Assembly (NCBI GenBank): GCA_911728435.2
Contig: OU452213.1
Span: forward strand, 9,651,834 to 9,715,833
Direction of reading: 5' to 3'
Origin: Apoderus coryli
Taxonomy: Eukaryota; Arthropoda; Insecta; Coleoptera; Attelabidae
Length of the DNA: 64,000 nucleotides
Below are positions 15,201-60,727 of this stretch, piece after piece. The notes beneath the pieces were generated by a model that was not told where the DNA came from, did not search any database, and was given only the letters and a program-made list of their open reading frames with translations. Position 1 is the first letter of the stretch, and each line of letters starts with the position of its first letter. Position numbers and translations under genes: made by a program.

Positions 15201-18200
15201 ATCGAATTTAAAGAGTATAAAATGAAGTTAAACCTCATTTTTTTGATCAAAAACACCTTTTCAAAATTTGAGTTGTATAACTTGAAAACTTCTTTAGATA
15301 AGGAGTTGCAATTTAGTACAAGTTCTGAACTAATACAACAAAGTTGCCCTATCGAATCTAAAGCGTACAAGATGAAGTTAAACCCCTTTTTTAAATCAAA
15401 AACACCTTTTCAAAATTTGAGTTGTATAACTTGAGAACTTCTTGAGATAAGGAGTTGCAATTTATTACAAGTTCTGAACTAATAGAAAACAATTTGCCCT
15501 ATCGAATTTAAAGAGTATAAAATGAAGTTAAACCTCATTTTTTTGATCAAAAACACCTTTTCAAAATTTGTGTTGTATAACTTGAAAACTTCTTTAGATA
15601 AGGAGTTGCAATTTAGTACAAGTTCTGAACTAATACAACAAAGTTGCCCTATCGAATCTAAAGCGTACAAGATGAAGTTAAACCCCTTTTTTAAATCAAA
15701 AACACCTTTTCAAAATTTGAGTTGTATAACTTGAAAACTTCTTTAGATAAGGAGTTGCAATTTAGTACAAGTTCTGAACTAATACAACAAAGTTGCCCTA
15801 TCGAATCTAAAGCGTACAAGATGAAGTTAAACCCCTTTTTTAAATCAAAAACACCTTTTCAAATTTTGAGTTGTATAACTTAAAAACTTCTTGAGATAAA
15901 AAGTTGCAATTTAGTACAAGTTCTGAACTAATACAACAAAGTTGCCCTATCGAATCTAAAGCGTACAAGATGAAGTTAAACCCCTTTTTTAAATCAAAAA
16001 CACCTTTTCAAAATTTGAGTTGTATAACTTGAAAACTTCTTTAGATAAGGAGTTGCAATTTAGTACAAGTTCTGAACTAATACAACAAAGTTGCCCTATC
16101 GAATCTAAAGCGTACAAGATGAAGTTAAACCCCTTTTTTAAATCAAAAACACCTTTTCAAAATTTGAGTTGTATAACTTGAGAACTTCTTGAGATAAGGA
16201 GTTGCAATTTATTACAAGTTCTGAACTAATAGAAAACAATTTGCCCTATCGAATTTAAAGAGTATAAAATGAAGTTAAACCTCATTTTTTTGATCAAAAA
16301 CACCTTTTCAAAATTTGAGTTGTATAACTTGAAAACTTCTTTAGATAAGGAGTTGCAATTTAGTACAAGTTCTGAACTAATACAACAAAGTTGCCCTATC
16401 GAATCTAAAGCGTACAAGATGAAGTTAAACCCCTTTTTTAAATCAAAAACACCTTTTCAAAATTTGAGTTGTATAACTTGAGAACTTCTTGAGATAAGGA
16501 GTTGCAATTTATTACAAGTTCTGAACTAATAGAACACAATTTGCCCTATCGAATTTAAAGAGTATAAAATAATAATAATAATAATAATAATAATCTTTAT
16601 TGTCTAACAGGTTAAAAAACCCAATTACAAGACAATCCGACTAAATACATAATATCGTGTAGTAAACAATAATTTAAATACTTAATTGCGAATTCAAAAC
16701 AATTCTGAATCTTAAATCTATACCTAAACTAATTAAACATTATAAACAAAAATAAAAATAAACAAAAATGGCGAACGGAGAAGAACACGATCGACCTCAA
16801 ACGTCCCGACTGCGGAGGTAACCAATGACATTATTTTTAAAAGTAGATATTGGATCCCCAAAATAGTTGACCATAATATGAATGCTTTTGTCATTACACT
16901 GGTGACAGGCCTGATACAACGGAGCCTTGGTTTCATAATTAGTATGTATATGAGGTAGTCTGAATAATCGATGATGCCGAGCATAGTACTGGGGTAGATG
17001 GAAATTCAGTTGCTCAAGAAGAGCAGGACAGTCTATCATGTCATTTAACAACCTAAACACAAACGTTTGACCAACCAGAACTCTGCGCATAGCGAGTGAA
17101 TCAATTTGAAATCTCGCCAATAAATAACGGTGATCAATCCCGCGAGCTGGAAACACACCCTCAGTTTTAAATAATAAAAATTTAAGGAATCTACGCTGGA
17201 CGGACTCCAATTTACGCACATGGATGTCATAAATAGGGGACCAGATAAATGACGCATATTCGAGTTTAGACCGCACCAAGGTGTAATATAAATTTAACAA
17301 ACAGTTCGTGTCACGAAAGTCCCTTCCCATGCGGAGAATAAATCCCAAACTTTTTAAAGCATTCTGAGTTATATGCTGAATATGATAATCAAATGACAAG
17401 TCACTATCAATGAACACTCCGAGATCCTTGATCACATCCCTTTTCTGTAGAGGTGTATTATTAATTCTATAATTAAAATTTAGTGGGCTATAACGCTTCG
17501 AAATTGTTAACTGTCCACATTTGTCAATGTTCACGGGCAGTCCATTCGCGACACACCATTGTTCCAGCTTAAATAGGTCGTTTTGAAGGTCATGACAATG
17601 GTCGTAATCATCAACAATTCCGTAGAGCTTCAAATCGTCCGCAAACAGTAGAGAGCGACTTTGCATGTCACTTATAATATCATTAATGTATATGGAGAAA
17701 ATTAACGGGGCCAATATGCTACCCTGCGGTGCCCCGCTAGTCGCGGAAAATGTATGGGATTGGAATCCATTATATTCCACAAACTGACTTCGTCCCGAAA
17801 AGTAGGAGGCAAAAAACTCTACCAGATCCCAACGGAACCCTATATTTATCATCTTTTGTTTGGCAATTGAATGACTGATCCTATCGAATGCCTTTGACAT
17901 ATCAGTATAAATGACATCTACTTGGGAACCCTCGCCAACTGCCCTGTAGACATCTTGCGCAAAACATGTTAAGTTCGTAACAGTGGATCGCTTTTGATAA
18001 AAACCGTGTTGTTCAGGTATTATACGCAACTTTACTTGACTAAATATTTTTTCATGAAGTATGGTTTCGAAAACTTTAGCAAAATTAGATGATAATGAGA
18101 TGGGTCGATAGTTGACTACCCGGTCAGCTTCAGAGGATTTGTGAATTGGACAAACTCTAGACATCTTCCAGCGATTCGGAAACGTCCGTGATTGAAGGGA

Positions 18201-21200
18201 CTTGTTGAATATTGTCAGTAGTGGTTTTGATAAAACATACGCACAGTCACGAAGGAGAAAAGAAGGAATGTTATCTGGCCCGGAGGTTAATTTGGCTTTA
18301 AGCTTTTTAAGAGCTTTCATAACATCCTCCTCATCCAGCGTTCCAATTGAGATGACGTCATTAAAGCTCGACGAATCAATACAATCAATACTCTCGGAAG
18401 GAACATAAACAGAACTGAAAAAACTAGCAAACGAATTGACAATCATTTGAGGATCCGACACTCGCTCACCAGAGACATCCACCATCGCACCCGGTATTCG
18501 GGATTTACGTTTTTTATTTTGGACAAATTTCCAAAATTCTTTAGGGTCAGTTTTTATTGCATTCTGTACATGTAATAAATAATTACTATATTCAATGTTA
18601 ATGTTATGTTTGATTCTAGCGCGCAGGGTGCAGAACATATCCAGATAATACTGCGATTTAGTTGACTTCCATTTCTGAAAATATTTATACTTTTGTCTGA
18701 CTTCCCTAATTAAATCATGACTAAACCAGCATGGGTAAGCATATGAATTTCTACGTAAGTTGTATTTAGGTACGCACATATCAAAAACAACTTTCAATTT
18801 TCGATAAAATTGATCGATGGCCTCATTTATATCATTAATGCCGTTCAGAAATGACCAGTCACAGAGAAAAATCTGCTCGTATAGCATCGGAAAATTTGCC
18901 TTTTTAAAATTGTATTTTTCGTTTACAGTACCGGAAACGAAGTTACTTTGGCGGTATTCCGCTTTGGCAACTAGAGATATCAACAAAGCTGGGTGATAAT
19001 TGTCCTCCGCCACCAGTGGCTGACCGCATGGGGATACTTCGCAGCACATATTGCAAAAGACGAGATCCAATAAATGATTGAAATGATTAAATACCCTGTT
19101 GTTTTGTGCCAGGCCAAAGAATGACATAAAGTTGTGAGTTAAGTGAAGATAAGGGTTTGTGACATTACCCGTCATTTCTGGTTCGTAATGCACATTAAAG
19201 TCTCCCATTATCAATATTCGTGCAGAAAAAGTGTTTGGCAGATTTTCAAAGAACTCAAATAATCTACCATATTGCTCAACAGTAACATTTGGTGGGACAT
19301 AAACACAGAAACAATAAAAGGAGCAGCCATGTAAGTAAATTCTGCATCCAATAACGTCAATACAGGCCGGAATCATCGAGAAAAACTCAGAATGAAAACA
19401 TCTGGATTGCAAATCAGTTCTTATGGCCAACAGCACTCCTCCGCCTCGAGAAACATTTAAGGTCTCCACATCGCGATCCTTCCTATAAATGACATAGCTA
19501 TCCCCGAACAGTTCCGCATCCAGTACGCCAGGCTGGATCCACGTCTCGGTGACTGCGATGATGTCATAGTGAGCGTCACAAATAGATTTATAGAATACAC
19601 TTGTTTTAGTATTTAAGCCTCTCACGTTTTGGTACACAATACTCAGATACAAGTCTCTCCTGTTAGACGATGAGTTCAGTTTAAAGAATCGTTTCCAGAG
19701 CTCACAATGGTTGGTATTCCCTTGATGTACTTAATTCTGATGTTATTCTCACCACTCTTCAAACGCTCCTCAAGTTGCCTTTTCACGGTTTTGTATTCGT
19801 TCAACTGTCTAGGAGTCTTGTCCGAGCTAATGGTGATATGTTTCAGTTGGGGGAACGTTTTCATTTTCGACGTTTGTCGTAAAACTTGCGAAACACACCT
19901 GGAATCCTTGAAGACAATACGGATTGGTCGTGGTCTAATGGTGGAGTTAGGAATTGACGATGTATGACGACCAATTCTTTGAACTCTTTCTATGTCATTT
20001 GCATTTATATGTGGGCAGATCTTCTGGATGATATTTGCCAATATTAACTGGTCATTCTCATCATTAGCGGGGCAGTTAAACCTCTTTTTTTTTGATCAAA
20101 AACACCTTTTCAAAATTTGAGTTGTATAACTTGAAAACTTCTTGAGATAAGGAGTTGCAATTTATTACAAGTTCTGAACTAATAGAAAACAATTTGCCCT
20201 ATCGAATTTAAAGAGTATAAAATGAAGTTAAACCTCATTTTTTTGATCAAAAACACCTTTTCAAAATTTGAGTTGTATAACTTGAAAACTTCTTTAGATA
20301 AGGAGTTGCAATTTAGTACAAGTTCTGAACTAATACAACAAAGTTGCCCTATCGAATCTAAAGCGTACAAGATGAAGTTAAACCCCTTTTTTAAATCAAA
20401 AACACCTTTTCAAATTTTGAGTTGTATAACTTGAAAACTTCTTTAGATAAGGAGTTGCAATTTAGTACAAGTTCTGAACTAATACAACAAAGTTGCCCTA
20501 TCGAATCTAAAGCGTACAAGATGAAGTTAAACCCCTTTTTTAAATCAAAAACACCTTTTCAAAATTTGAGTTGTATAACTTGAAAACTTCTTTAGATAAG
20601 GAGTTGCAATTTAGTACAAGTTCTGAACTAATACAACAAAGTTGCCCTATCGAATCTAAAGCGTACAAGATGAAGTTAAACCCCTTTTTTAAATCAAAAA
20701 CACCTTTTCAAAATTTGAGTTGTATAACTTGAGAACTTCTTGAGATAAGGAGTTGCAATTTATTACAAGTTCTGAACTAATAGAACACAATTTGCCCTAT
20801 CGAATTTAAAGAGTATAAAATGCAGTTAAACCTCTTTTTTTTTGATCAAAAACACCTTTTCAAAATTTGAGTTGTATAACTTGAAAACTTCTTGAGATAA
20901 GGAGTTGCAATTTATTACAAGTTCTGAACTAATAGAAAACAATTTGCCCTATCGAATTTAAAGAGTATAAAATGAAGTTAAACCTCATTTTTTTGATCAA
21001 AAACACCTTTTCAAAATTTGAGTTGTATAACTTGAAAACTTCTTTAGATAAGGAGTTGCAATTTAGTACAAGTTCTGAACTAATACAACAAAGTTGCCCT
21101 ATCGAATCTAAAGCGTACAAGATGAAGTTAAACCCCTTTTTTAAATCAAAAACACCTTTTCAAATTTTGAGTTGTATAACTTGAAAACTTCTTTAGATAA

Positions 21201-24200
21201 GGAGTTGCAATTTAGTACAAGTTCTGAACTAATACAACAAAGTTGCCCTATCGAATCTAAAGCGTACAAGATGAAGTTAAACCCCTTTTTTAAATCAAAA
21301 ACACCTTTTCAAAATTTGAGTTGTATAACTTGAAAACTTCTTTAGATAAGGAGTTGCAATTTAGTACAAGTTCTGAACTAATACAACAAAGTTGCCCTAT
21401 CGAATCTAAAGCGTACAAGATGAAGTTAAACCCCTTTTTTAAATCAAAAACACCTTTTCAAAATTTGAGTTGTATAACTTGAGAACTTCTTGAGATAAGG
21501 AGTTGCAATTTATTACAAGTTCTGAACTAATAGAACACAATTTGCCCTATCGAATTTAAAGAGTATAAAATGAAGTTAAACCTCATTTTTTTGATCAAAA
21601 ACACCTTTTCAAAATTTGAGTTGTATAACTTGAAAACTTCTTTAGATAAGGAGTTGCAATTTAGTACAAGTTCTGAACTAATACAACAAAGTTGCCCTAT
21701 CGAATCTAAAGCGTACAAGATGAAGTTAAACCCCTTTTTTAAATCAAAAACACCTTTTCAAATTTTGAGTTGTATAACTTGAAAACTTCTTTAGATAAGG
21801 AGTTGCAATTTAGTACAAGTTCTGAACTAATACAACAAAGTTGCCCTATCGAATCTAAAGCGTACAAGATGAAGTTAAACCCCTTTTTTAAATCAAAAAC
21901 ACCTTTTCAAATTTTGAGTTGTATAACTTGAAAACTTCTTTAGATAAGGAGTTGCAATTTAGTACAAGTTCTGAACTAATACAACAAAGTTGCCCTATCG
22001 AATCTAAAGCGTACAAGATGAAGTTAAACCCCTTTTTTAAATCAAAAACACCTTTTCAAAATTTGAGTTGTATAACTTGAAAACTTCTTTAGATAAGGAG
22101 TTGCAATTTAGTACAAGTTCTGAACTAATACAACAAAGTTGCCCTATCGAATCTAAAGCGTACAAGATGAGGTTAAACCCCTTTTTTAAATCAAAAACAC
22201 CTTTTCAAATTTTGAGTTGTATAACTTGAAAACTTCTTGAGATAAGGAGTTGCAATTTATTACAAGTTCTGAACTAATAGAAAACAATTTGCCCTATCGA
22301 ATTTAAAGAGTATTAAATGAAGTTAAACCTCATTTTTTAAATCAAAAACACCTTTTCAAATTTTGAGTTGTATAACTTGAAAACTTCTTGAGATAGGGAG
22401 TTGCAAATTCATCAACATTCTGAACTAATAAACCGAATTTACTGTATCGAATTTCAAGCGGATAAGATAGAAAATATTTTGGCTACCTCTGAAGTTGTAT
22501 AACTTGCAAACTTCTTGAATAAACGGAGTTGCAATTTAGAAGAAGTTCTGGGCCAATAACCCAAAAGAACTCTCATATTTAAAGCATAAATAATTGAAAC
22601 AAAAACTAATTTTCATCAAAAACACTTTGTCAAACTTTGAAGTTGTATAATTTTGAACCTTCACGAGATAAATTAATAGAGGTACTGATATTATAAATTG
22701 TACCTCCAAAACATCTAAACAAAGTGATACCTGATAGCACACCTACATTTCCATCACATGTGGAGTCTGAAACAAACGACTACACAAAGGAAACTTTACC
22801 AACTTTAAATCACCACCCAAAAGTCACCCAGTACGTAACTTGACCGCGTTTCTCGTCATCTAGAAACGGACATTCAAACAAACTCTTATTCATTACAGAC
22901 TTGGCAATATTCTGCGCAGGCATATTCTGCAATAAAAACCCATAATCCCAACCCAATTTGTAACGGTCTGAACGTAAAACTCACTTTAAATCACATCGCG
23001 TTTCCAAATAAAGCGTGTATGATCTGACAACAGCGTTATCCACTATTGCCGTGTAAGTTTTCGACACTACTGCTGGTCCTTCGAGCAGAGAATTACGCCT
23101 CGCCCAACGTCTAATTGGACTAGTGAAAAAGACCGGCGGGTAATTTCTGGAGCAATTTGGCATCGTCACAGAGTAGCGTATGTCTGAGCTCGTTTAAATC
23201 AAGACTGCTGCCGCTGAATTGACTGCTGTCCTGTGCATAATCTTATCCTCATCACTATCTTCATCTTTCCTTCCCCGAAACAATTTACGGACAAAAGTCC
23301 ATTATTACGGCGTACATACAATATACAGGGTGGTCCAGTTTCAAAAGCCATGGCTTGATAAGATCTTCTTGAAGAATCGTCATATAGAGAGTAGAACGTT
23401 AAAGGATTGCGGGCGCCCAGTCTTGACACGTTTAAATTTATTTGAGCCAGGAGAACAGTCGATTCTATTATGTAAAAGATTATATACAAATTCTAGAGAA
23501 AAATATATTCTTCTAAACTCCAAACTCTTGAATTCGAACCTGTTCAGTAAATACGAATATTCAATCCCTCTGTCATGATAAATACCGTCTGCCTTAAATG
23601 AAAGGTATTTCAAAAACTTCCATTGGACACTCTCAACATTCCGCACATGAATCTGATAGATCGGATACCAAATCAAGGAGCAATATTCGAGCTTCGAACG
23701 AACAAAACTTTCAACGGATCAATACTATGAAAACTTCTATAGCTTCTCACGATAAAACCGTAGGATTTCATAGCTTCACAAGTCCTGGCAGGCACATGTG
23801 GCACAAATGGCAGATTAGAGTCGAAAAGCACGCCCAGGTCAGCAGCAGCCAGACACCTAGCCAGTGCCGTCCCACCAACCGTGTAGCGAAAATTTATACT
23901 TTTAGTGAATGTCATACATTTGCATTTATTCTCGTTGAGCGATAGTTTATTAACGTTACACCAATGCTCTACACCCCTCAGATCGTCCTGCAACCGAAGA
24001 CAGTCTGCGTGAGAAGTAATAGGACGAATAACTTAAGATCATCGGCAAAAAAATGCCGCTTTACACACAGACAATCATTTACATCGTTATAAAACTAGAA
24101 AAAAAGCAGTGGGCCCAAATTGGATCCCTGCGGAACACCAGATGAAGCCCAATACCTTTCTGACCTATAGCCGTTATAATATACATATTGGAGTATGTTC

Positions 24201-27200: not shown

Positions 27201-30200
27201 TCTCTATCCCAGCCCGAAAGTTAAATCACCGTTAGACGAAGGGTTCTTTGAATTTTATTGATTAGACACCCTGCACAGGGTGATCCAAATTTGGGCGCTT
27301 TTCTTAGGAAACATAATTATAGCCAAATTGTAAGTGAGACGTCATGGATGTCCATAAAAACCTTTGCAACTTTTCATAAGGAATTGGACTACGTAATAGT
27401 TAATTTCACACTCTTTAATGATCTTGATTTATGAATGTCCTTCATATTTTTGGCAAACATGTTGTTGATCTAAGTAAAGTTACTTCACGCCAACTTTAGA
27501 TCTGAAACATCAGATTTATCAAAATTTCCCATTGAAATGTTTGCTAATTTAGACATAAATTTTTCTTTAAAATCCTGCACTCGAATACGTGCTTTAAGAA
27601 ATATTTTTTTTACACTGGAAATGAAAACATTAACAAGTGGAAATATTTTTTTTGGGCAACCCTGTTTAGGTCATGTGCTAAACATGTTACATCATGTATT
27701 AGTTGATTGTAAAATATTTTCAAATTTTGACCCGCCTTTACCATGTAAGGTGCTGCATCTGACAACAAACGTAAGAGACAAGGATCTGTTTACCATCTTT
27801 TATTAGGGTGGGGTTTACCCTGCTATTTCGGTACTCGCTATGGTTTTAAATTTAAAAATTGTGTGTAGAATTAGGAATTTCTATTCTAACAATTATTGAT
27901 GTAAAATGTTTTGGCTGAATATACTTCATTATATGCAGTTGTTTACAAAAATATGTAGAAAAACACTAAAATACAATATGTGCACTTTGCCTAAATGCCT
28001 TTCTTTAGCTATTACAGTAGAACAACTAAAATTGAAGAAAACTTCAAAAAGTTATGAATCAAATAAGTTTTTTCAGAATCTATAAGTCGCCCTGTATATT
28101 TATTAATATACAGGAAGACTCTATTCTTCATAGATTGTACCTAATTTCGCATTAATTCTTCTATGTCTGATTCACATTGGTTTTCTTCGTTTCGCTTTCA
28201 GTTTCGCGTTGCTTGCATTCTACTTTCTCAAATTCTTTCTGAGCCACCCATTGTGCATTTTCAAATGACGCGTTTTCGTTTCTCATGAAGATATTCTTTT
28301 ATTTCTGCTTCTTTCCTAGCCTCATGTCTTATTTTCTTCCATTTGCGTCAAAGTTATGCCGAGTTTTCGCTTTTTTGACTAAGTTACTTTGTTTTCTTCT
28401 GCTTTCTGAACTTTGCGTTCTTTTATCTTTTCCTCTTATTGAGTTCACCTTTGCGTCGCTTTTTTTCTATTTCTTCCCTAACTTCGTGTTGCTTTGTTTC
28501 TTCATAGATTGTACCTAATTGCGCATTAATTCTTCTATGTCTGAATCACGTTGTTTTTCTTCGTTTCGCTTTGCTGACATTCTACTTTCTCAAATTCTTT
28601 CTGAGCCGCGCATTGTTCCTTTTTAAATGACGCGTTTTCGTTTTTCATGAAGATGTTCTTTTATTTCTGCTTCTTTCCTATCCCCATGTCTTATTTTCTT
28701 CCATTTCCGTCAAAGTTATGCCGAGTTTTCGCTTTTTTGACTGCGTCACTTTGTTTTCTTCTGCTTTCTGAACTTTGCGTTCTTTTACCTTTTCTTCTTC
28801 TTTTTGATTTCACCTTCGCGTCGCCTTATTTCTCTTTCTTCCCTTACTTCGTGTTGATTTGTTTCTTCATAGATTGTACCTAATTTCGTATTAATTCTTC
28901 TGTCTGAATCCCGTTTTTTTTCTTCGTTTCGTTTTCAGCTTCGCTTTGCTTGCATTCTACTTTCTCAAATTCTTTCTGAGCCACGCATTGTTCCTTTTCA
29001 AATGACGCGTTTTCGTTTCTTATGAAGATGTTCTTTTATTTCTGCTTCTTTCCTAGCATCATGTCTTATTTTCTTCCATTTTCCTCAAAGTTATGCCGAG
29101 TTTTCGTTTTTTTGACTGCGTCACTTTGTTTTCTTCTGCTTTCTGAACTTTGCGTTCTTTTATCTTTTCTTCTTCTTTTTGAGTTCACCTTCGCCTCGCC
29201 TTATTTCTCTTTCTTCCCTAACTTCGTGTTGAGTTGTTTCTTCATAGATTGTGCCTAATTTCGCATTAACTCTTCTGTCTGAATCCCGTTTTTTTCTTCG
29301 TTTCGTTTTCAGCTTCGCTTTGCTTGCATTCTACTTTCTCAAATTCTTTCTGAGCCAGGCATTGTTCCTTTTCAAATGACGCGTTTTCGTTTCTCATGAA
29401 GATGTTCTTTTATTTCTGCTTCTTTCCTAGCATCATGTCTTATTTTCTTCCATTTTCGTCAAAGTTATGCCGAGTTTTCGTTTTTTTGACTGCGTCACTT
29501 TGTTTTCTTCTGCTTTCTGAACTTTGCGTTCTTTTATCTTTTCTTCTTCTTTTTGAGTTCACCTTCGCCTCGCCTTATTTCTCTTTCTTCCCTAACTTCG
29601 TGTTGAGTTGTTTCTTCATAGATTGTGCCTAATTTCGCATTAACTCTTCTGTCTGAATCCCGTTTTTTTCTTCGTTTCGTTTTCAGCTTCGCTTTGCTTG
29701 CATTCTACTTTCTCAAATTCTTTCTGAGCCAGGCATTGTTCCTTTTCAAATGACGCGTTTTCGTTTCTCATGAAGATGTTCTTTTATTTCTGCTTCTTTC
29801 CTAGCATCATGTCTTATTTTCTTCCATTTTCGTCAAAGTTATGCCGAGTTTTTGCTTTTTTGACTGCGTCACTTTGTTTTCTTCTGCTTTCTGAACTTTG
29901 CATTCTTTTATCTCTTCTTCTTATTAAGTTCACCTTTGCGTCGCTTTTTTTCTATTCTTCCCTAACTTCGTGTTTCTTTGCTTCTTCATAGATTGTACCT
30001 AACTTAGCATTAATTCTTCTATGTCTGAATCACGTTGTTTTTCTTCGTTTCGTGTTGTTGACATTCTACTTTCTCAAATTCTTTCTGAGCCGCGCATTGT
30101 TCCTTTTTAAATGACGCGTTTTCGTTTTTCATGAAGATGTTCTTTTATTTCTGCTTCTTTCCTATCCCCATGTCTTATTTTCTTCCATTTTCGTCAAAGT

Positions 30201-32833
30201 TATGCCGAGTTTTCGCTTTTTTGACTGCGTCACTTTGTTTTCTTCTGCTTTCTGAACTTTGCGTTCTTTTACCTTTTCTTCTTCTTTTTCAGTTCACCTT
30301 CGCGTCGCCTTATTTCTCTTTCTTCCCTTACTTCGTGTTGATTTGTTTCTTCATAGATTGTATCTAATTTCGCATGAATTCTTCTGTCTGAATCACGTTG
30401 TTTTTCTTCGTTTCGCATTCAGCTTCGCTTTGCTTGCATTCTACTTTCTCAAATACTTTCTGAGCCACGCATTGTTCCTTTTCAAATGGCGCGTTTTTGT
30501 TTCTTATGAAGATGTTCTTTTATTTCTGCTTCTTTCCTATCCCCATGTCTTATTTTCTTCCATTTTCGTCAAAGTTATGCCGAGTTTTCGCTTTCTTGAC
30601 TGCGTCACTTTGTTTTCTTCTGCTTTCTGAACTTTGCGTTCTTTTACCTTTTCTTCTTCTTTTTGAGTTCACCTTCGCGTCGCCTTATTTCTCTTTCATC
30701 CCTTACTTCGTGTTGATTTGTTTCTTCATAGATTGTATCTAATTTCGCATTAATTCTTCTATGTCTGAATCACGTTGTTTTTTTTTGCGTTTCGCTTTCA
30801 GCTTTGCTTTGCGTGCATTCTACTTTCTCAAACTGTTTCTGAGCCACCCTTTGTTTCTCATAAAGATGTTCTTTTATTTCTCCTTCTTGAAACACCAGTT
30901 TCATTGACCAGGGTTCTAATAGACACCTTTGGATTAAAATTTACATATAGATTAATAAGATTTTGGTTACATCTTACTGTGCGTTCAATTGCAAGTACCT
31001 CGTTTATTATTTGGAAAATGTCCCGGTCTAAGTGAGCGTTCCAAATTCTTAAATGTTTCTTCATTTGTAATGTTTCGATTTGGAAACCTTTCTTGATATA
31101 ATTATCGAGAAACTCTGTTATTTTTCAAGCATTCTCCATAAATCAGTATCATATCAACGTATTCTTCAGGCGTAAATAAATTACGCATATTGAAATGTTA
31201 TACACAATTACTGGTCTAATAATTTTATTCCAAACGTCAAGAATAATAATTCTTGATCTGACAGGTTAAATCATGGCAACCTGGATTAACATAGTGAGCA
31301 ATTAAAAGCTATTTTCTTAATTGTTTATGAACCGATTTTAATTTTGGATAATTTGTTGAATAGACGATGGAATACTACATACAAACTTATATAAAAATAT
31401 ACAGGGTGCAATTAAAATTTTTAAAGTTAGGGGTTGTTACTAAGGGGTGAATATTTTGGGGATGGATTTTTCTAAGCCATATTAACGTGTATTAAAAATG
31501 GAATGGATCAGTTTTTGTTCCATTCGAATATCTCTATGCGTTTACGAGATATAGCATGGATAAACTAGTCTGGGACACACTGTATATATTTCGACTCGAT
31601 CGGCATAATCTTCAAGGCCAAATTAAAAAGTTTCTTAAAAACGCCTTATATCAAGTAAAAATGGTTCCACACCTAACCTAACCTGGACTAAACTACTGTA
31701 AACTAATATTGCTGACTTTTTAGCTGTCAAAGTCGTTTCCAGGGAACACAGCACAGAGTCAGCCTCAATTGCATTGTTAATTCTTAGTTGCCGAGTACGG
31801 TTGCCATAAGCGATTTCGTACTTCGAAAAAACCGCCCTATTAAGGGCGTCCCCTAATGAAGGTTTCCTGGAGGGTAGCGGAATGAAGGTGACTGCCTTCG
31901 CTCGGTTTTTTGTAGAAATTAGTTCACAGTAGTTCAGTCCAGGTTAGGTTTGGTTAGGTTAGGCAATTGATGAAGGTCATATGGATCAACTCCAAATCAA
32001 AAGTTGAGTTGAATGATTTGTAACCTCTAGCGCTAAAACAAATGTGAGCCTAGCTTTTTCCTATCAAAAGCGTTCAATTTGCAACACCATCTACATAAAT
32101 ATAGTTATTTTTCTTTCTCCAGGATGAAATATGCCTTCAAGTATCAGCTGTAATAGATCGGACACCGCTTATTCTAAAACCAAGGAAATTACCCACATCG
32201 TTACAAAAACAGATTTATCCAGACATTCCTTCAAAAAATCGACTCAGTTTAGATATAACACCGTGTATAACCCTTGAAGAGACAACAGTTCCTGCAAAAT
32301 TAAGCTTTATCGAAGATCTAACACCTGACGATAATAGCGCCTATCTAACTCTATCAAAAATCAATTATGATATCGATTTTTCTGATATAAGCAATGATAA
32401 CAGTATAAGTGAAGCATTAACTCCAGAAAAACGATGTTCACCGACTCCAAGCTTCACACCAGATCCGTTTAGTCCTGTCGGAAGTGCATGTAATATCACC
32501 CAAACTCCTTTGATACCATCGAAAGTGGTTCATGTTCCTGCTGCTAAGAACGACTTTGTTTTACCGTTTTTGGAGAATCTTCCCCAACAGCAAGATAGTG
32601 ATACGTTAGGTACTGAGGGTTTAGAAGAAAAAGCTGAAGAAAATGATGTTGCGTTGTTATTGGATACAAAAGTTGATAGTCCTGTGGAAAAACTCCCATC
32701 GCCTATTAAACCGATGAGGTCAACGGAATATACTGGATTTTCGAAACAAGGTTGGAAGATTCCTAGTATTTCATGCAATACGGGTGATTTGAGCTCATTG
32801 GAGCTTGAGAGTCAAGATAAAGAACTGCAGTAA
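5923..32833 (+). CDS. Rabex-5: Rabex-5 / RABGEF1 orthologue, Rab5 guanine-nucleotide exchange factor (C-terminal six exons)
   Basis: Exons 5923-6253, 11383-11639, 11708-11865, 25674-25755, 26989-27149 and 32123-32833 join in phase with canonical GT-AG introns to give about 566 codons ending at TAA 32831-32833. The protein activates Rab5 on early endosomes. Exons 1-4 carry the helical bundle and VPS9 catalytic domain: [90 protein letters not shown], then [17 protein letters not shown]. The VPS9 acidic residue (SADE) and catalytic-type Tyr (GYYF) are kept. The fifth exon is a helical Rabaptin-binding-type segment; the last exon is an acidic, Ser/Pro-rich tail. The ubiquitin-binding A20 finger expected at the N terminus must lie left of the window. 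Introns of 5.1, 13.8 and 5.0 kb are filled with satellites and transposons, yet no exon is damaged. Confidence 0.93.
6388..11248. repeat. ~182-bp satellite array inside a Rabex-5 intron
   Basis: About 26-27 tandem monomers of roughly 182 bp, marked by recurring AAATCTGGCAACAATGAACA, AGGTAAATCCCCGTTCTTAT and TGAAGTTGCAGACAACATAC blocks. Both edges are degenerate (6388-6530 and 10980-11248), as expected for an old array with a homogenised centre. Some monomers share private variants in a five-monomer order that repeats 911 bp later. Short ORFs in it are chance products. Confidence 0.95.
11383..11639 (+). CDS. Rabex-5: Rabex-5 exon (VPS9 domain, first half)
   Basis: Acceptor TTCTTGCAG ends at 11382 and donor GTTAGA starts at 11640. 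It encodes [19 protein letters not shown] through VVEVLQHCQ, ending with a G that the next exon completes to Gly. Confidence 0.92.
11708..11865 (+). CDS. Rabex-5: Rabex-5 exon (VPS9 catalytic core)
   Basis: A 68-base intron (11640-11707) separates it from the previous exon. Acceptor TTTGTAG and donor GTGAGT. It encodes [20 protein letters not shown] to EAGYYFTNL and ends on a codon boundary. Confidence 0.92.
11930..16567. repeat. ~150-bp satellite array, left segment, inside a Rabex-5 intron
   Basis: Tandem monomers of 149-150 bp, recognised by AAGTTAAACC, CAAAAACACCTTTTCAAA, GAGTTGTATAACTTGA and TTGCCCTATCGAAT. Two main monomer classes (AAACCTCATTTTTTTGATC versus AAACCCCTTTTTTAAATC) alternate in longer patterns. 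About 31 monomers here. The array starts about 65 bases after the donor at 11866. Paired 63- and 70-codon frames on opposite strands repeat with it and are not genes. Confidence 0.95.
16797..19652 (-). CDS. Non-LTR retrotransposon ORF2 protein, apparently intact (endonuclease + RT)
   Basis: The frame has 951 codons. The N-terminal endonuclease shows [36 protein letters not shown] and EDNYHPALL. The RT shows [71 protein letters not shown] and the catalytic [10 protein letters not shown]. The C-terminal part has the [15 protein letters not shown] motif common to jockey/CR1-like elements. No stop or frameshift interrupts it, so it is the best candidate here for a recently active element. It starts 23 bases after the ORF1 stop. 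Confidence 0.9.
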   Translation of the reverse strand: MYLSIVYQNVRGLNTKTSVFYKSICDAHYDIIAVTETWIQPGVLDAELFGDSYVIYRKDRDVETLNVSRGGGVLLAIRTDLQSRCFHSEFFSMIPACIDVIGCRIYLHGCSFYCFCVYVPPNVTVEQYGRLFEFFENLPNTFSARILIMGDFNVHYEPEMTGNVTNPYLHLTHNFMSFFGLAQNNRVFNHFNHLLDLVFCNMCCEVSPCGQPLVAEDNYHPALLISLVAKAEYRQSNFVSGTVNEKYNFKKANFPMLYEQIFLCDWSFLNGINDINEAIDQFYRKLKVVFDMCVPKYNLRRNSYAYPCWFSHDLIREVRQKYKYFQKWKSTKSQYYLDMFCTLRARIKHNINIEYSNYLLHVQNAIKTDPKEFWKFVQNKKRKSRIPGAMVDVSGERVSDPQMIVNSFASFFSSVYVPSESIDCIDSSSFNDVISIGTLDEEDVMKALKKLKAKLTSGPDNIPSFLLRDCAYVLSKPLLTIFNKSLQSRTFPNRWKMSRVCPIHKSSEADRVVNYRPISLSSNFAKVFETILHEKIFSQVKLRIIPEQHGFYQKRSTVTNLTCFAQDVYRAVGEGSQVDVIYTDMSKAFDRISHSIAKQKMINIGFRWDLVEFFASYFSGRSQFVEYNGFQSHTFSATSGAPQGSILAPLIFSIYINDIISDMQSRSLLFADDLKLYGIVDDYDHCHDLQNDLFKLEQWCVANGLPVNIDKCGQLTISKRYSPLNFNYRINNTPLQKRDVIKDLGVFIDSDLSFDYHIQHITQNALKSLGFILRMGRDFRDTNCLLNLYYTLVRSKLEYASFIWSPIYDIHVRKLESVQRRFLKFLLFKTEGVFPARGIDHRYLLARFQIDSLAMRRVLVGQTFVFRLLNDMIDCPALLEQLNFHLPQYYARHHRLFRLPHIHTNYETKAPLYQACHQCNDKSIHIMVNYFGDPISTFKNNVIGYLRSRDV
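19676..20068 (-). CDS. Non-LTR retrotransposon ORF1, C-terminal part (RRM-like nucleic-acid-binding domain)
   Basis: The frame opens from the truncated 5' end near 20068 ([13 protein letters not shown] before the first Met at 20041) and stops at 19676. RVQRIGRH followed by [19 protein letters not shown] resembles the RRM/C-terminal region of L1-type ORF1 (transposase_22-like) proteins. No start codon belongs to it; the N-terminal part was lost on insertion. Confidence 0.65.
   Translation of the reverse strand, partial: ANDENDQLILANIIQKICPHINANDIERVQRIGRHTSSIPNSTIRPRPIRIVFKDSRCVSQVLRQTSKMKTFPQLKHITISSDKTPRQLNEYKTVKRQLEERLKSGENNIRIKYIKGIPTIVSSGNDSLN
20070..22460. repeat. ~150-bp satellite array, right segment
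   Basis: Same 149-150-bp monomer as 11930-16567, about 16 copies. It resumes within the same monomer that the retrotransposon split. From about 22320 the monomers accumulate differences. Confidence 0.93.
22461..23394. other. Decayed satellite edge and unassigned intronic DNA
   Basis: 22461-22680 contains two recognisable but highly diverged monomers (GAAGTTGTATAACTTGC at about 22490). 22700-23320 has no feature I can support. A TACAGGGTGGTCC terminus sits at about 23321, at the 3' edge of the next retroelement fragment. Confidence 0.5.
23395..25352 (-). pseudogene. Broken non-LTR retrotransposon ORF2
   Basis: Minus-strand fragments in several frames: endonuclease end ([16 protein letters not shown] near 25230), linker and RT start (24516-24877), RT fingers/palm (24095-24523: [45 protein letters not shown]), FADDLKLF near 24030 and thumb/C-terminal pieces (23380-23993: [17 protein letters not shown]). 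Frameshifts separate them and the aspartate in the YTDFSKAFD block is followed by AKALD. It is 5' truncated inside the endonuclease. Same family as 35614-38557. Confidence 0.8.
25324..25364. repeat. 12-bp perfect inverted repeat at the 5' junction of the broken retrotransposon
   Basis: AGTCAAGCTGGT (25324-25335) and ACCAGCTTGACT (25353-25364) are exact reverse complements with a 17-base loop. The second arm adjoins the truncation point, consistent with a snap-back joining event during insertion, but chance cannot be excluded. Confidence 0.45.
25674..25755 (+). CDS. Rabex-5: Rabex-5 exon (end of VPS9 domain)
   Basis: Acceptor CTGTTTCAG ends at 25673, donor GTAAGA begins at 25756. Encodes [20 protein letters not shown] to NGYMS plus one base. 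This continues GYYFTNL exactly as in other Rabex-5 proteins, despite the 13.8-kb intron before it. Confidence 0.92.
25756..26988. other. Rabex-5 intron with TACAGGG-type repeat termini
   Basis: No coding frame. Termini of the TACAGGGT/ACCCTGTA class occur near 26020, 26274, 26330 and 26392; the last reads CATACAGGGTGTTTC. They probably mark small non-autonomous elements whose borders I could not fix. Confidence 0.5.
26989..27149 (+). CDS. Rabex-5: Rabex-5 exon (helical segment after VPS9)
   Basis: Acceptor CTTTGAAG and donor GTAGAT. Reads [20 protein letters not shown], then [20 protein letters not shown] to REDMKNLK, a coiled-coil-prone segment matching the post-VPS9 region of the family. 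It ends on a codon boundary. Confidence 0.9.
27150..28129. other. Rabex-5 intron, unassigned
   Basis: AT-rich. TACAGGGT-type termini occur at about 27270-27285 (back to back: ACACCCTGCACAGGGTGATC) and about 28090-28115. The short frame at 27537-27806 has no recognisable domain. Confidence 0.4.
28130..30870. repeat. T-rich ~374-bp tandem array in the last Rabex-5 intron
   Basis: Seven units whose marker GATGTTCTTTTATTTCTGC recurs with spacing 361-375 bp (from 28288 to 30508). Other conserved blocks are TTTTCTTCCATTTTCGTCAA, TATGCCGAGTTTTCG and GATTGTACCTAATTTCGC. Units at 29022, 29396 and 29770 are nearly identical, indicating recent exchange. The minus strand is correspondingly Lys/Arg/Glu-rich in translation but has no long open frame. 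The 78-codon hydrophobic frames on the plus strand are periodic artefacts. Confidence 0.9.
30871..32122. other. Remainder of the last Rabex-5 intron
   Basis: Contains a TATACAGGGTGCAATT terminus at about 31402 and a foldback element at 31671-31964. The polypyrimidine tract and acceptor TTTCTTTCTCCAG at 32110-32122 lead into the last exon. Nothing coding seen. Confidence 0.5.
31671..31964. mobile_element. Short foldback element with TTAGG-like ends
   Basis: Left arm about 31671-31709 (ACCTAACCTAACCTGGACTA then AACTACTGTAAACTAAT) matches the reverse complement of 31917-31962 with about three substitutions and a small extra repeat. Ends resemble the arthropod TTAGG telomere repeat (GGTTAGGTTTGGTTAGGTTA). 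About 290 bp with no ORF, so probably a MITE. No clear target-site duplication. Confidence 0.65.
32123..32833 (+). CDS. Rabex-5: Rabex-5 terminal exon (acidic C-terminal tail)
   Basis: Begins in phase with [19 protein letters not shown] and stays open for 236 codons to TAA. The tail is rich in Ser, Pro, Asp and Glu ([30 protein letters not shown]), with no recognised domain; such tails in this family are poorly conserved. An AATAAA signal at 32882-32887 marks the likely 3' end. Parts of this exon occur as decayed copies at 35060 and 39175. Confidence 0.9.
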   Translation, partial: DEICLQVSAVIDRTPLILKPRKLPTSLQKQIYPDIPSKNRLSLDITPCITLEETTVPAKLSFIEDLTPDDNSAYLTLSKINYDIDFSDISNDNSISEALTPEKRCSPTPSFTPDPFSPVGSACNITQTPLIPSKVVHVPAAKNDFVLPFLENLPQQQDSDTLGTEGLEEKAEENDVALLLDTKVDSPVEKLPSPIKPMRSTEYTGFSKQGWKIPSISCNTGDLSSLELESQDKELQ

Positions 32834-33009: not shown

Positions 33010-34760
33010 GTATTTTCTTCCATTTTCGTCCAAGTTATGCCGAGTTTTCGCTTTGTTTTCTTCTACTTTTTGAACTTTGCGTTCATTTATCTTTTCTTCT
33101 TTTTGAGTTCACGTTCGCGCCGCCTCATTACTCTTTTTTCCTTAACTTCGTGTTGATTTGTTTCTTCATCGATTGTACCTAACTTCACATTAATTCTTCT
33201 ATGTCTTCTCAAATTCTTTCTGAGCCACGCATTGTTCCTTTTCAAATGTCGCGTTTTCGTTTCTCATGAAGATGTTCTTTTATTTCTGTTTCTTTCCATA
33301 GCATCATGTCTTATTTTCTTCCATTTTCGTCAGTTATAGCGAGTTTTCGCTTTTTTGACAACGTCACTTTGTTTTCTTCTGCTTTCTTTTACCTTTTCTT
33401 CTTCTTTTTGAGTTCACCTTCGCGTCGCCTTATTTCTGTTTCTTCCCTAACTTCGTGTTGATTTGTTTCTTCATTGATTGTACCTAATTTCGCATTAATT
33501 CATCTATGTCTTCGTTTCGCTTTCAGTTTCGCTTTGCTTGCCTTTTACTTTCTCAAATTCTTTTTGAGCCACGCATTGTGCCTTTTCAAATGACGCGTTT
33601 TCGTTTCTCATGAAGATGATCTTTTATTTCTGATTCTTTCCTAGCCTCATGTCTTATTTTCTTCCATTTTCGTGTTATGCTGAGTTTTCGCCTTTTGACT
33701 GCGTCACTTTGTTTTCTTCTGCTTTCTTTTACCTTTTCTTCTTCTTTTTGAGTTCACCTTCGCGTCGCCTTATTTCTGTTTCTTCCCTAACTTCGTGTTG
33801 ATTTGTTTCTTCATTGATTGTACCTAATTTCGCATTAATTCATCTATGTCTTCGTTTCGCTTTCAGTTTCGCTTTGCTTGCCTTTTACTTTCTCAAATTC
33901 TTTTTGAGCCACGCATTGTGCCTTTTCAAATGACGCGTTTTCGTTTCTCATGAAGATGATCTTTTATTTCTGATTCTTTCCTAGCCTCATGTCTTATTTT
34001 CTTCCATTTTCGTGTTATGCTGAGTTTTCGCCTTTTGACTGCGTCACTTTGTTTTCTTCTGTTTTCTGAACTTTGCGTTCTTTTATCTTTTCTTCTTCTT
34101 CTTCTTGAGTTCACATTCTCGTTGCCTTATTTCTCTTTCTTCTCTTACTTCGTGTTGATTTGTTTCTTCATAGATTGTACCTAATTTCGCATTAATTCTT
34201 CAATGTGTGAATCCCGTTGTTTTTCTTCGTTTCGCTTTCAGCTTCGCTTTGCTTGCATTCTACTTTCTCAAATTCCTTCTGAGCCACGCATTGTTCCTTT
34301 TCAAATGACACGTTTTCGTTTCTCATGAAGATGTTCTTTTATTTCTGCTTCTTTCCTAGCATCATGTCTTATTTTCTTCCATTTTCGTCAGTTATGCTGA
34401 GTTTTCGCTTTTTTGACTGCGTCACTTCTTTTTTCTTCTGTTTTCTGAACTTTGCGATCTTTTATCTTTTCTTTTTCTTTTTGAGTTCACCTTCGCGTCG
34501 CTTTATTTCTGTTTCATCCCTAACTTCGTATTGAGGTATGTCTTCATAGGTTCTGTCTAATTTCCCATTAATTCTTCTATGTCTGCATTACGATGTTTTT
34601 CATCTTTTCGCTTTCAGCTTCGCCTTGTTTCCATTCTACTTTGTCAACTTTTTTCTGAGCCACGCATTGTTCCTTTTCAAATGACGCGTTTTCATTCCTC
34701 ATGAAGATGTTCTTTTATTTCTACTTCTTTCCTAGCCTCACGTGGATTTAGATTTTCTTC
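33010..34760. repeat. T-rich ~340-375-bp tandem array downstream of Rabex-5
   Basis: Same family as 28130-30870. Marker positions 33271, 33615, 33955, 34330 and 34706 give spacings of 344, 340, 375 and 376. Two 340-bp units (about 33380-33720 and 33720-34060) are almost identical. The array therefore brackets the terminal exon on both sides. 34760-35058 is related T-rich sequence. Confidence 0.88.
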
Positions 34761-43445: not shown

Positions 43446-46400
43446 CTGGAAACAGAATAGTCATTTTTGTTACAAGTACCTAAAATGAATTTTCCACACA
43501 ATTTTTAGTCATACGCTACCAAAATTTAAATATGACGAAATTAACAGGCTCATTCGTGCGAAATGCAGACAAGCCAAAGAATCATGGTTGGCGAACAAAT
43601 GCACGGAAATAGAAATACTTCAGAAGAAGCACGATCTCTTTAACTTACACAGGAATATCAAAGAGCTTACAGGCAGGCAGCGGGGAGGTCATAGTGGAAT
43701 ATTAAGGGACTCCAACAATGAAATTCTTATAGGAGTAGATGAGATACTAAAAAGGTGGAAAGAATATACCGAAAATCTCTTTAATGACATGAGACCAGAC
43801 TCACCCCCTGATATATACGAAATCAACGAAAGGGCTCCTGAAATTACAAAAGAAGAGGTCAAACATGCAATTAAACTACAAAAGAACAGAAGAGCAGTTG
43901 GTCCTGACAACGTGCATGCGGAAACATTTAAACTTGCAGCTGCCGAGGACCGAATGTACAGAGTCGGAAAAATACCCACAGACTGGCTGAGATCCACCTT
44001 TGTTACTTTGCCAAAGAAGAACAAGGCATCACAATGTGACGAATACCGCATGATCAGTTTGATGTCCCACGCCTTGAAGATATTCTTGCGGATCATTCAT
44101 AACCGCATATACAAAAAGTGTGAGTCCGTAATTGATCGCTCGCAATTTGGCTTTAGGAATGGAACGGGTACCCGAGAGGCTCTTTTCTCTTTGAATGTGC
44201 TAACTCAGAGATGTAGGGACATGAATGTCGATGTATTCGCGTGCTTTATTGATTATAAAAAAGCTTTTGATTGTGTGTCACATCAAAAAATGATCAACAT
44301 CCTAAAATCAACCGGGATCGATGCTCAAGATCTAAAGATCATTACTGAACTTTATTGGCACCAAACAGCAACAGTCAAAATCGAAGGGTCCACATCAGAA
44401 GAAATAGCAATAAGAAGGGGCGTGCGACAGGGTTGTGTACTGTCCCCACTACTGTTTAATCTCTACTCTGAGGCAATATTCATCGAAGCTCTCGAAAATT
44501 CAACTGCAGGCATAAAGATCAATGGAATCAATATAAGTAACCTTCGATACGCAGATGATACCGTCGTAATAGCCAGCAGTATAACAGAACTTCAATCCCT
44601 TATGAACCTTATTGGGGAGTATAGTGAGAACTTTGGGCTTTATATGAATACATCCAAGATCAAACTGATGGTATTCTCAAAATCACCAAGACCCGTTACT
44701 CTAATGATCAACGGAGAGCACATTACACAAGTGTCATCTATAAAATACTTGGGGGTACTCGTCAGCCAGCAATGCGAAATTAGATCAAGAATTGCGCAAG
44801 CACGGAAAATTCTGAATAACATGAGGACACTTCTGGCAAACCGAGACCTCAGCCTGGACCTCCGGATTAGATTACTTCGCTGCTACATCTTTCCTGTCCT
44901 TCTATACGGATGTGAGAGCTGGACCATTGATGCAACCACAGAAAAGAGAATCGATGCGTTCGAAATGTACGCCTACAGACGAATGCTGCGAGTTTCTTGG
45001 ACGGCACATAAGACAAACATAGAGGTTATGCAGCAAATGGAAAAACACAAAGAACTCCTCATGACAATCAAGGAGAGAAAGCTGCAGTACCTAGGACATA
45101 TCATGAGAGGCGAACGATATGAGATTCTCCGCCTGATAATAGAGGGAAAGATCGAAGGAAAACGGTCAGTCGGCCGTAGACAAAATTCATGGCTGAGGGA
45201 CTTACGTAGATGGTTCGGACAGACGTCCATAGAAATTTTCAGAGCTGCGGATTCCCGCACAACAATAGCCATTTGGATCGCCAACCTTCGTAGGGAGACG
45301 GCATCCTAAGAAGAAGAAGAAGACCAAAATTTAGTTCTACGCTTTTTACTATTCTTCAGAACGCTTAAATTTGCAAATTTCCCATCATTTTTGAAATCAT
45401 AATGAAATCGCAGTTCAAATCGACAAAGTTGGTCATCTCTGATTGAAGCAATAAAATAACTAAAGAAATTCCCACTCGCAACCTCAACAAAATTTGTTTA
45501 AATTGCTTTGCATGTTTCGCCCTCAATTGGGCATCATCAGATCCATCAGAATGCAATGACGTTCAATCTCGATAAATTAGATTGGATCGGATAATATCCA
45601 TGCATTCAGATGGAGGGACGCTAGGGAACAGGTTTTTACCGTCCAAGGATAACAAAATTGAATTCTCAGGTATAGAGATCTCTTTCAACTGGTTCGCAAA
45701 TTCGATGGTATTTTTAATCGAAAAATCCAAATCGTGTTGGATTTATTTACTTTACCCATAGAAATGTTATATTATATAGGGTGTTAGTAAATAAGTGCGA
45801 CAAACTTAAGGAGGTAATTCTGTATGAAAAAATAATGACAGTTTGCTTGTATAAACATATGTCCGCAAATGCTTCGTTTTTCTTAAAAACTGAAGATTTA
45901 TTGATTGCTCTGAAACCGGTGGAGATATGCAAATGAAATTTAGTGGGTTTTAAGAGGTAGTTATTGCGCATTTTTTGACATGCAATTAAGAATTTTATGT
46001 CCATCAGTGGCGCGCATACGGGTACCTAATAATCTCATTTTTTTTAAACAAAAAAGTGATACGCCATTGGAATTTTTCAAATTAAAAATCATTCTGGAAT
46101 TCCTCGTTCAATTTGTGTATCTCAGAAAACGAAGCATTTGCGGACATATGTTTATATAGCTAACTGTCATTATTTTTTCATGCAGAATTATCTCCTGGAG
46201 TTTGTCGCACTTATTTACTAACACCCTGTATATGTACTCTAGAATGCTAATTAAATTCAGCCTAATATGAAAAAGTGTAACGGGTATGCAGAGCTGCCTT
46301 ATTTAAATTTAAAAACTAATAGCGTTAGGTATAAGAATGGCTTTATAAGAATAAAAGCTTATCAATTTTCCTTTTAGTTTTTGATATTATTTACAGGGTT

Positions 46401-50873: not shown

Positions 50874-51234
50874 CTGAAAAGGAAACCAAACAAATCCTAA
50901 TTTCTGTATGGACAGCTTTTGGTGCCTCAATGGTACCAGTTTCTATTCCCATTGAGACCAGAATCAAATTAGGTATTTAAACCAATTACAAGTGAGAAGT
51001 AAAAGTCGAAACCCGAGGAAATAAGTTTAACAAACTACTCTTTGAGTACCAAAAAAATTACAAAAAATGTTTTGAAGATACTAGCTTTATCATCAGTGGT
51101 TAAGCATTTATAGAAAAGGACTTTGCATTGTGTAAATAATCATAACTCTACATAAGTGCCTAAGCATACAGAAAGAAATGCATTGGAGTCTCTTCGGGAA
51201 AAATTAGTATATTAACTTATTGCTCTTTTCTTTT
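50874..51234. other. Upstream region of the sulfotransferase gene
   Basis: Would contain the 5' UTR intron or promoter. No TATA-initiator combination I would defend. No other gene. Confidence 0.35.
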
Positions 51235-57113: not shown

Positions 57114-57924
57114 TGATTTAAATATCCCACAATTTCCAGTATAGTATAATGTGAAAAAAAAACATCCAATCTATGTTACAGAAATACCAAAATCTGATGA
57201 TGATTTTGATATTTCATTTCTGTAAATGTTCAACCACTGATGATGAAGCTAGTAGCTTCGAAACATTTTTGGTCGTATCTAATTTTTTGTGATATACTCA
57301 AAGAGGACTTTTATTTGTCACTTTTAACACATTCACTCCTCGCCAGTATGGACTATTTGTTTAAACTTACACGACTAATGATAAAAATGAAGAATACTCA
57401 CATATATCTATCACTAATCATATGATCTTCAATTAATTATTTGTCACAAATCACTTAAGTATTAGTAGGTATAGTAAAATCGACAATGAATCCACTTGAT
57501 CATAAGCTACCTGAATCTAAACGGTTTATCTATTTTTATTCTTTGTATACTGTTATAAACCACTTTCTTTAACACAATTAATCTGTAACACTTGTGGACG
57601 ATGTCGCATACAAACAACAATTTCACTTCTTCGTTGCTCATTGATTATTATTTTTGGGTCTGTAAAAGTAAGTTCTCTGCTGTTTTTGTTTTTAAATCGA
57701 CCACTTTCTAATTTCGTTGTTGGTAATCCGGTATCGAAATTATGTATTTAACACAAATTAAGTGTTATGGAAATGTAGGTACCCGAAAATATAATGTAAG
57801 GTCGATTCACACTAGGCGCTATTCGGTACTGTCTGGAACCTCACGATTCGCTTAGTTAAGAATTTGGGGTCTTCGGGATTCTCGAGTGCTGCTTAAAGGC
57901 TGTTTGAAGTTTATTTTACCGGAA
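57114..57924. other. Spacer with hammerhead-like motif, otherwise unassigned
   Basis: Apart from the motif at 57224-57268 nothing is recognised. Short frames such as 57240-57425 begin inside the motif and show no domain. Confidence 0.45.
57224..57268 (+). ncRNA. Hammerhead-like structured motif, copy A
   Basis: Outer arm AAATGT (57224-57229), CTGATGA (57237-57243), T, perfect hairpin GAAGC-TAGTA-GCTTC (57245-57259), GAAAC (57260-57264), outer arm ACATTT (57263-57268). Outer arms pair over six bases. Only seven bases lie between the first arm and CTGATGA, too few for a normal stem I hairpin. Confidence 0.5.
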
Positions 57925-60560: not shown

Positions 60561-60727
60561 ATAATAAATAACGTCATCAGTAAAAAGTATTTAAATTCAA
60601 TGGTACGATTTACATGTATATTTATCTAACTAACTTTATAAAGTTAGAACATCTCATAATAGATAAATATACATGTAAATCGTACCATTGAATTTAAATA
60701 CTTTTTACTGATGACGTTATTTATTAT
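60561..60727. repeat. 167-bp near-perfect hairpin (67-bp arms)
   Basis: 60561-60627 and 60661-60727 are exact reverse complements over 67 bases as read here (ATAATAAATAACGTCATCAG outermost). The 33-base spacer contains an 18-base palindrome, CTAACTTTATAAAGTTAG. Too short for a gene. It is probably a foldback MITE, and its transcript would form a long double-stranded hairpin. No clear target duplication. Confidence 0.85.

Follow-up and report, generated by a model that had tools for sequence, protein, structure and literature searches.

Hammerhead motifs in a 64-kb window of the Apoderus coryli genome: damaged members of a minimal type I family probably carried by Penelope-like elements

What are the short motifs that recur, far apart and with differing letters in their arms, along one stretch of the Apoderus coryli genome (64,000 nucleotides of contig OU452213.1, positions 9,651,834 to 9,715,833, hereafter the window, numbered from its first letter)? 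The first-pass annotation had described three dispersed copies of CTGATGA-T-hairpin-GAAAC, and all three were found where it had placed them, with cores at 5319-5344 on the plus strand (copy 1), 45514-45540 on the minus strand (copy 2) and 57237-57264 on the plus strand (copy 3, CTGATGA-T-stem II-GAAAC). A fourth, more mutated core, absent from that annotation, lay at 51069-51096 on the minus strand (copy 4). The core pattern, scanned as CTGATGAN{4,30}GAAAC, matched three times in the window, whereas 100 dinucleotide shuffles gave a mean of 0.24 and a maximum of 2 matches and never reached three, which rules out a chance origin of the three motifs. A protein-coding region was also rejected, the ATG frame of copies 1 and 2 stopping within a few codons. 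As a joint explanation, the motifs are very probably what is left, in decayed form, of the 3' ends of Penelope-like elements (PLEs) and of short derivatives of these, each descended from a minimal type I hammerhead.

The same pattern was abundant in the genome. Its 428,062,225 bases (129 contigs) held 20,403 matches, all insertion classes together (10,099 on the plus and 10,304 on the minus strand), against 2,791 (1,455 and 1,336) for the pattern read backwards as a control. Among 100 genome places listed, a hairpin of at least 4 bp fitted better when one T was skipped in 47 and when one A was skipped in one; 19 showed such a hairpin without skipping and 33 had none. Forty genome stretches, chosen by eye among the listed places and favouring visible hairpins, yielded 50 usable copies, 42 of which carried the T after CTGATGA that the first-pass annotation had singled out. 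Deduplication of this T class left 36 sequences, all from outside the window in the same genome, in which C3 to A9 and GAAAC were fixed by the search pattern and the T by selection, all other features being results. Looser pattern scans of viral and bacterial contigs returned, among the matches listed, mostly chance occurrences, except for hammerheads on viral contigs.

The family represented by these 36 copies is a minimal hammerhead of type I, in which stem I is open, at about 4-6 bp, and a real stem III is lacking; its fold is fixed by covariation. RNAalifold, run unguided, recovered stems I and II, and for 8 of the 12 pairs predicted both partners had changed in at least one copy; stem III was not predicted, and three other pairs joined core bases that the hammerhead leaves unpaired, a misfit to that structure. 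When the type I structure was named, 82.5% of the cells were paired (59.7% in shuffled sets) and covariation reached 0.598 (0.186 in shuffled sets), values attained by 0/500 shuffles, a count that overstates independence as the copies are mutually related. One of the five measures, the number of pairs changed on both sides (10), did not rise above the shuffles (163/500). Sliding the stem partners lowered pairing to 45% or less. The structured, hammerhead-derived RNA proposed from the window alone was thereby upheld, its covariation extending beyond the three copies to these 36 others.

Stem I abuts the core in the manner of NCCA/TGGN, one strand directly 5' of CUGANGA and the other directly 3' of the cleavage nucleotide. 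It was paired in 76.1% of the cells, with 5/5 pairs changed on both sides, and took forms such as CCA/TGG, TCA/TGA, CAA/TTG, AGG/CCT, GGA/TCC, TGT/ACA and AAG/CTT. The mean run of pairs in its register was 3.06, compared with 1.43 for re-paired flanks, and at least four pairs were present in 21/36 copies. Stem II is a hairpin with one extra nucleotide in front of it. Stem III consists of AC/GT only, that is, the pairs A15.1-U16.1 (AU in 33/36) and C15.2-G16.2 (CG in 32/36) around a two-base middle, with GT at 16.2-16.1 in 32/36. Cleavage position 17 was occupied by A in 15 copies, C in 13, T in 8 and G in none.

The motif could have ceased to be a ribozyme, its fold being retained for the PLE reverse transcriptase (RT) to bind or to initiate on, with cleavage incidental. 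The position of the extra nucleotide, between A9 and stem II and beside the catalytic A9, would agree with this, as would the account of Poseidon of Anolis carolinensis (PAc) in the relevant parts of PMC11167929, where insertion persists in mutants unable to cleave and a stem-loop deeper in the ORF is the start point of reverse transcription. The U16.1 partner (33/36) and a non-G at position 17 (36/36) were nevertheless kept although the search had fixed neither, and they count against such a reading because a binding hairpin needs neither; we regard it as unlikely and retain a ribozyme-derived, minimal type I hammerhead.

A custom covariance model (R1), of the kind suggested in the first-pass annotation, was built from the 36 copies with none from the window. 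It recovered all four window copies at E values from 1.7e-12 to 5.9e-5, the next match standing at E 0.3, and scored most extra-A PLE hammerheads poorly. The window copies are differently damaged members of the family. None of copies 1, 2 and 3 possessed all three stems together with the cleavage triplet, and the window copies are most likely inactive or very weak ribozymes.

Copy 3 was the best preserved by score (R1 match 57229-57278, plus strand, 52.2 bits, E=1.7e-12), with a full stem II (GAAGC/GCTTC) and a kept stem I (ACCA/TGGU) whose 5' strand ACCA at 57233-57236 and 3' strand TGGT at 57270-57273 were placed from the R1 alignment and the relatives. The lack of a stem I stated in the first-pass annotation therefore does not describe this copy, nor the family, in which stem I is open and stem III is the one reduced. 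The reduced stem III and the cleavage-site nucleotide (H17 at 57269) occupied 57263-57269 in the R1 alignment, which, read with the relatives, placed copy 3 without the C15.2-G16.2 pair present in most of them. The repeat stretch that bears this hammerhead (57217-57311, plus strand) was found in at least 45 other genome places, matches to the query 57120-57330 falling mostly at its positions 98-192. Copy 4 (R1 match 51055-51104, minus strand, E=7.7e-6) is a more decayed hammerhead in the same repeat, its repeat at 51032-51116 on the minus strand being 79% identical to that of copy 3.

Copy 1 (R1 match 5311-5358, E=3.3e-5) belongs to an element at 5319-5442 on the plus strand. Its stem I 5' strand is absent because the 5' end of the element coincides with the first core base: 36/49 non-self matches to the query 5240-5450 started at query positions 80-83, the longer ones ending near 203, and the adjoining 5240-5319 (plus strand) is a different repeat, two matches elsewhere spanning only query 1-80 and 10-80. 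Two of the eight relatives read (L349 and L350) could form a six-pair stem I with one mismatch, pairing being judged by eye, and by the same judgement the upstream strand was less clear in the other six. Copy 2 (R1 match 45500-45548, E=5.9e-5) lies in an element of hammerhead and 3' tail at 45420-45550 on the minus strand, with 18 genome matches in query 223-361. Its relatives mostly had stem I as GGAT/ATCC and a GTA cut site, both of which copy 2 has lost on the 3' side, leaving it without U16.1 and the stem I 3' strand. Stem II paired with other letters in copy 2 (GCCC/GGGC) than in copy 3, so the pairing with differing letters noted earlier is real in these two; copy 1 had GC/GC, then a mismatch.

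Of eight stop-free pieces around the copies, one passed the Pfam cut-off, a DUF5601 domain (which we take to be the Rabex-5 domain) 560 bp from copy 1. Besides this DUF5601 exon the window holds a sulfotransferase exon and LINE-type ORFs; the organism-named relatives of a 951-aa LINE ORF, six among 120 listed, were all from beetles. A 149/300-bp satellite array (11932-16564 and 20074-22430) flanks a LINE ORF at 16797-19652 on the minus strand, and a 182-bp tandem repeat array spans 6527-11179. Two similar-looking tandem arrays with units of 374 and 340 bp (28124-30855 and 33206-34740) lie in a stretch of strong A/T skew, and a perfect 68-bp inverted repeat with a 31-bp spacer is found at 60561-60727.

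Penelope-like elements are, judged from sequence linkage, the carriers of the family. About 25 bases upstream of the copy 2 core and on the same strand, a stop-free 59-aa piece (45566-45742, minus strand) is the remnant of a Penelope-like RT. It was the best of 1,995 window ORF pieces against a profile of 120 PLE proteins (hmmsearch, E=5.4e-11), which had been gathered with a bait sequence and whose precomputed Pfam labels included reverse transcriptase and, in three members, GIY-YIG nuclease. Aligned to 14 PLE proteins by hhalign, the remnant reached a probability of 96.4% (E=1.3e-9), and its repeat had 26 genome matches at 83-90% identity. One PLE protein searched against the genome gave at least 68 scored matches. 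Linkage was taken to mean a core, with any base at N7, whose hairpin had 4 bp or more and which lay no further than 1 kb downstream of an ORF match. On this definition a hammerhead followed on the same strand in 23/30 PLE loci and on the opposite strand in 0/30, the 23 positive loci forming about four near-identical sequence groups; within the same 1 kb, 7/30 loci had no hammerhead motif. An insertion of one nucleotide was present in all 23 linked hammerheads; it was an A in 22 of them and a T in the other. The Penelope-like link guessed at in the first-pass annotation thus gained support, both beside copy 2 and across these loci.

Extra-T hammerheads downstream of PLE RT/endonuclease sequence were encountered at L267 and L272 (2/48 loci, mostly with short flanks). 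A U6 snRNA match (87.9 bits) was also observed at L267, positions 3030-3136 on the plus strand, about 260 bases downstream of the PLE hammerhead. The copy 2 subfamily was represented at L334 by two hammerheads, one at each end of two PLEs arranged head-to-head and each lying 283 bases downstream of its coding piece. The RT remnant and copy 2 belong to two repeat families that adjoin in the window; because L334 has both repeats in the same order, about 1.4 kb apart, copy 2 seems to be a PLE copy that has lost internal sequence. No PLE coding sequence turned up among the relatives of copy 3 (L317-L328).

A second class of hammerheads, without the insertion, coexists in this genome (3,891 matches against 7 for its control), consisting among 100 places listed mostly of CTGATGAGTCGTGGATCGACGAAAC and near variants. 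Some of them form retrozyme-like elements with tandem units of 332-339 bp joined head-to-head (L253 418-1464, C1:443050-444774; L273). The window motifs might accordingly be repeats of the retrozyme type, which are small elements with circular RNA, and not derive from PLEs. This is very unlikely: the window copies share the one-nucleotide insertion with every one of the 23 PLE-linked hammerheads, whereas the retrozyme-like class does not; the copy 2 subfamily sits in a PLE at L334; and no tandem second hammerhead copy was found in the 64-kb window. Derivation from PLEs is the reading that we keep.

Hardly credible is the model of the first-pass annotation, a stem-I-less, type III-like hammerhead closed by its outer arms. 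Copies 1, 2, 3 and 4 do offer outer helices at a similar offset, with 5, 6, 4 and 4 Watson-Crick pairs respectively, where the background for these registers is 0.017 at four or more pairs and 0.005 at five or more. Among the other copies, however, at least four pairs occurred in 0/36, the mean run being 0.92 and that of re-paired flanks 0.96, and the same flanks are explained by the type I stem I register. A type III hammerhead with an open stem III and a looped stem I is refuted for the family by the same 0/36. Of the inactive, minimal or unusual class envisaged earlier, the minimal hammerhead stands, as type I, while the single stem-I-less class gives way to three differently damaged members.

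Intact relatives of this minimal type I hammerhead would be expected to yield RNA that cleaves after the H of GTH. The hexamer ACNNGT was self-complementary in 30/36 copies; among the 32 with GT kept, the middle dinucleotide was self-complementary in 30, against a background of 0.41. The same property was seen in ACGU of the extra-A PLE families and in ACGGCCGU of the no-insert class. Since the strand of stem III (ACAUGU, ACGU) can pair with its own like, a pair of hammerheads within a multimeric transcript probably forms stem III jointly and cleaves as a dimer, which would cut long PLE transcripts into unit-length RNAs. It is the self-complementary stem III alone that points to dimer self-cleavage; cleavage itself, dimer action and a part in PLE RNA processing are all predicted from sequence. 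The title of a 2017 article by Lunse, Weinberg and Breaker states that PLE hammerheads cleave as dimers. A double-hammerhead arrangement for PLEs is mentioned in a passage of PMC6466107. According to the parts of PMC11167929 that treat the PAc hammerhead, it cleaved only with protein, its cleavage mutants were not impaired in insertion in vitro, and RNA ends were not seen at the cut site. A role in PLE mobility is unproven, since by that account cleavage is dispensable for insertion in vitro.

The extra T also occurs outside PLEs. In the viral collection it is carried by hammerheads whose stem III is complete, so the hammerhead core tolerates an extra T in nature. Five IMG/VR contigs (L010, L019, L046, L095 and L106) held hammerheads both with and without the extra T, each contig having at least two of type I about 210-1820 bases apart; a script rule called these viral hammerheads, requiring 4 or more pairs in stem I, 3 or more in stem II, 2 or more in stem III and no fewer than 11 overall. 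Strict PLE-like patterns and PLE proteins searched against the viral contigs found nothing. Core insertions of other kinds were tested by Perreault et al. 2011 (PMC3088659), whose text on core insertions makes no mention of one between A9 and stem II. In the literature searched, with the originals of Cervera and de la Pena 2014 and Lunse et al. 2017 outside it, the insertion was not seen described as a rule of PLE hammerheads.

The Rfam search proposed in the first-pass annotation stayed silent on the window, with no hammerhead at gathering and none at E<=10 around copies 1-3. In 16 loci, 14 of them containing extra-nucleotide copies, Rfam RF00163 (Hammerhead_1) reported none of these at E<=1, and it gave five no-insert copies of the genome 30.0-33.8 bits, below the gathering score of 34. 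This silence is weak evidence because Rfam at gathering also reported no hammerhead from 12 viral loci, although 11 of them contain one by the script rule.

Neighbouring elements showed a preferred orientation. In the no-insert class, neighbours within 3 kb among 100 places listed were -/+ in 12 cases, +/- in 0, ++ in 5 and -- in 4, and 7/9 same-strand spacings fell at 332-339 bases. For the core pattern of all classes, the 100 places listed, with reverse-strand places covered to about 1.4 Mb, gave 7 -/+ against 2 +/-, a comparison that is usable only in part. PLE ORF matches (68 listed) had 8 -/+, 1 -- and 0 +/- neighbours within 10 kb. Inverted PLEs are described as mostly head-to-head in a section of PMC3846280, and PLEs are proposed as the movers of animal retrozymes in one of PMC7229834. 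A layout common to PLEs and retrozyme-like repeats, in this small sample, would back that proposal; it was not seen reported in the literature searched, again with the Cervera and Lunse originals outside. We advance tentatively, with rather more doubt than belief, that the one-nucleotide insertion may define PLE hammerheads, separate them from insertion-free retrozyme-like ones and hide them from Rfam, and that the shared head-to-head layout may reflect integration of retrozymes by the PLE machinery. If that integration is true, which enzyme moves animal retrozymes becomes testable from genome sequence.

A pattern of three copies has thus become a defined family of many thousands of PLE-type hammerheads with a covariation-fixed fold, one not reported by the standard RNA family model in the loci tested. 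Its insertion beside a catalytic residue offers a concrete test of what PLE hammerheads do, and the layout shared by PLEs and retrozyme-like repeats one of what mobilises animal retrozymes.

Among known systems, the family shares the core and type I topology of Rfam Hammerhead_1, which differs in not reporting the extra-nucleotide copies at E<=1. PAc, as treated in PMC11167929, is alike in being a PLE with its hammerhead near the pLTR-ORF junction. Its ORF starts at stem II, whereas here, across 35 copies, the frame opened by the ATG of A9-T-G never exceeded 33 codons, which also excludes the extra T as part of a start codon. Metazoan retrozymes, in the account of PMC7229834, likewise carry a type I hammerhead, and a no-insert class coexists in this genome, but the window copies are non-tandem and have the PLE-type insertion. 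The nearest relatives are the minimal type I hammerheads of PLEs (Cervera and de la Pena 2014; Lunse, Weinberg and Breaker 2017), described in passages of PMC6155905 and PMC7761336 as type I, with almost no stem III, at PLE ends and in thousands of dispersed copies in animal genomes, as here; in all 23 linked copies found here, A9 and stem II are separated by a single extra nucleotide. The PLE hammerhead class is already published, and the family described here is another member of it, for which no priority is claimed.
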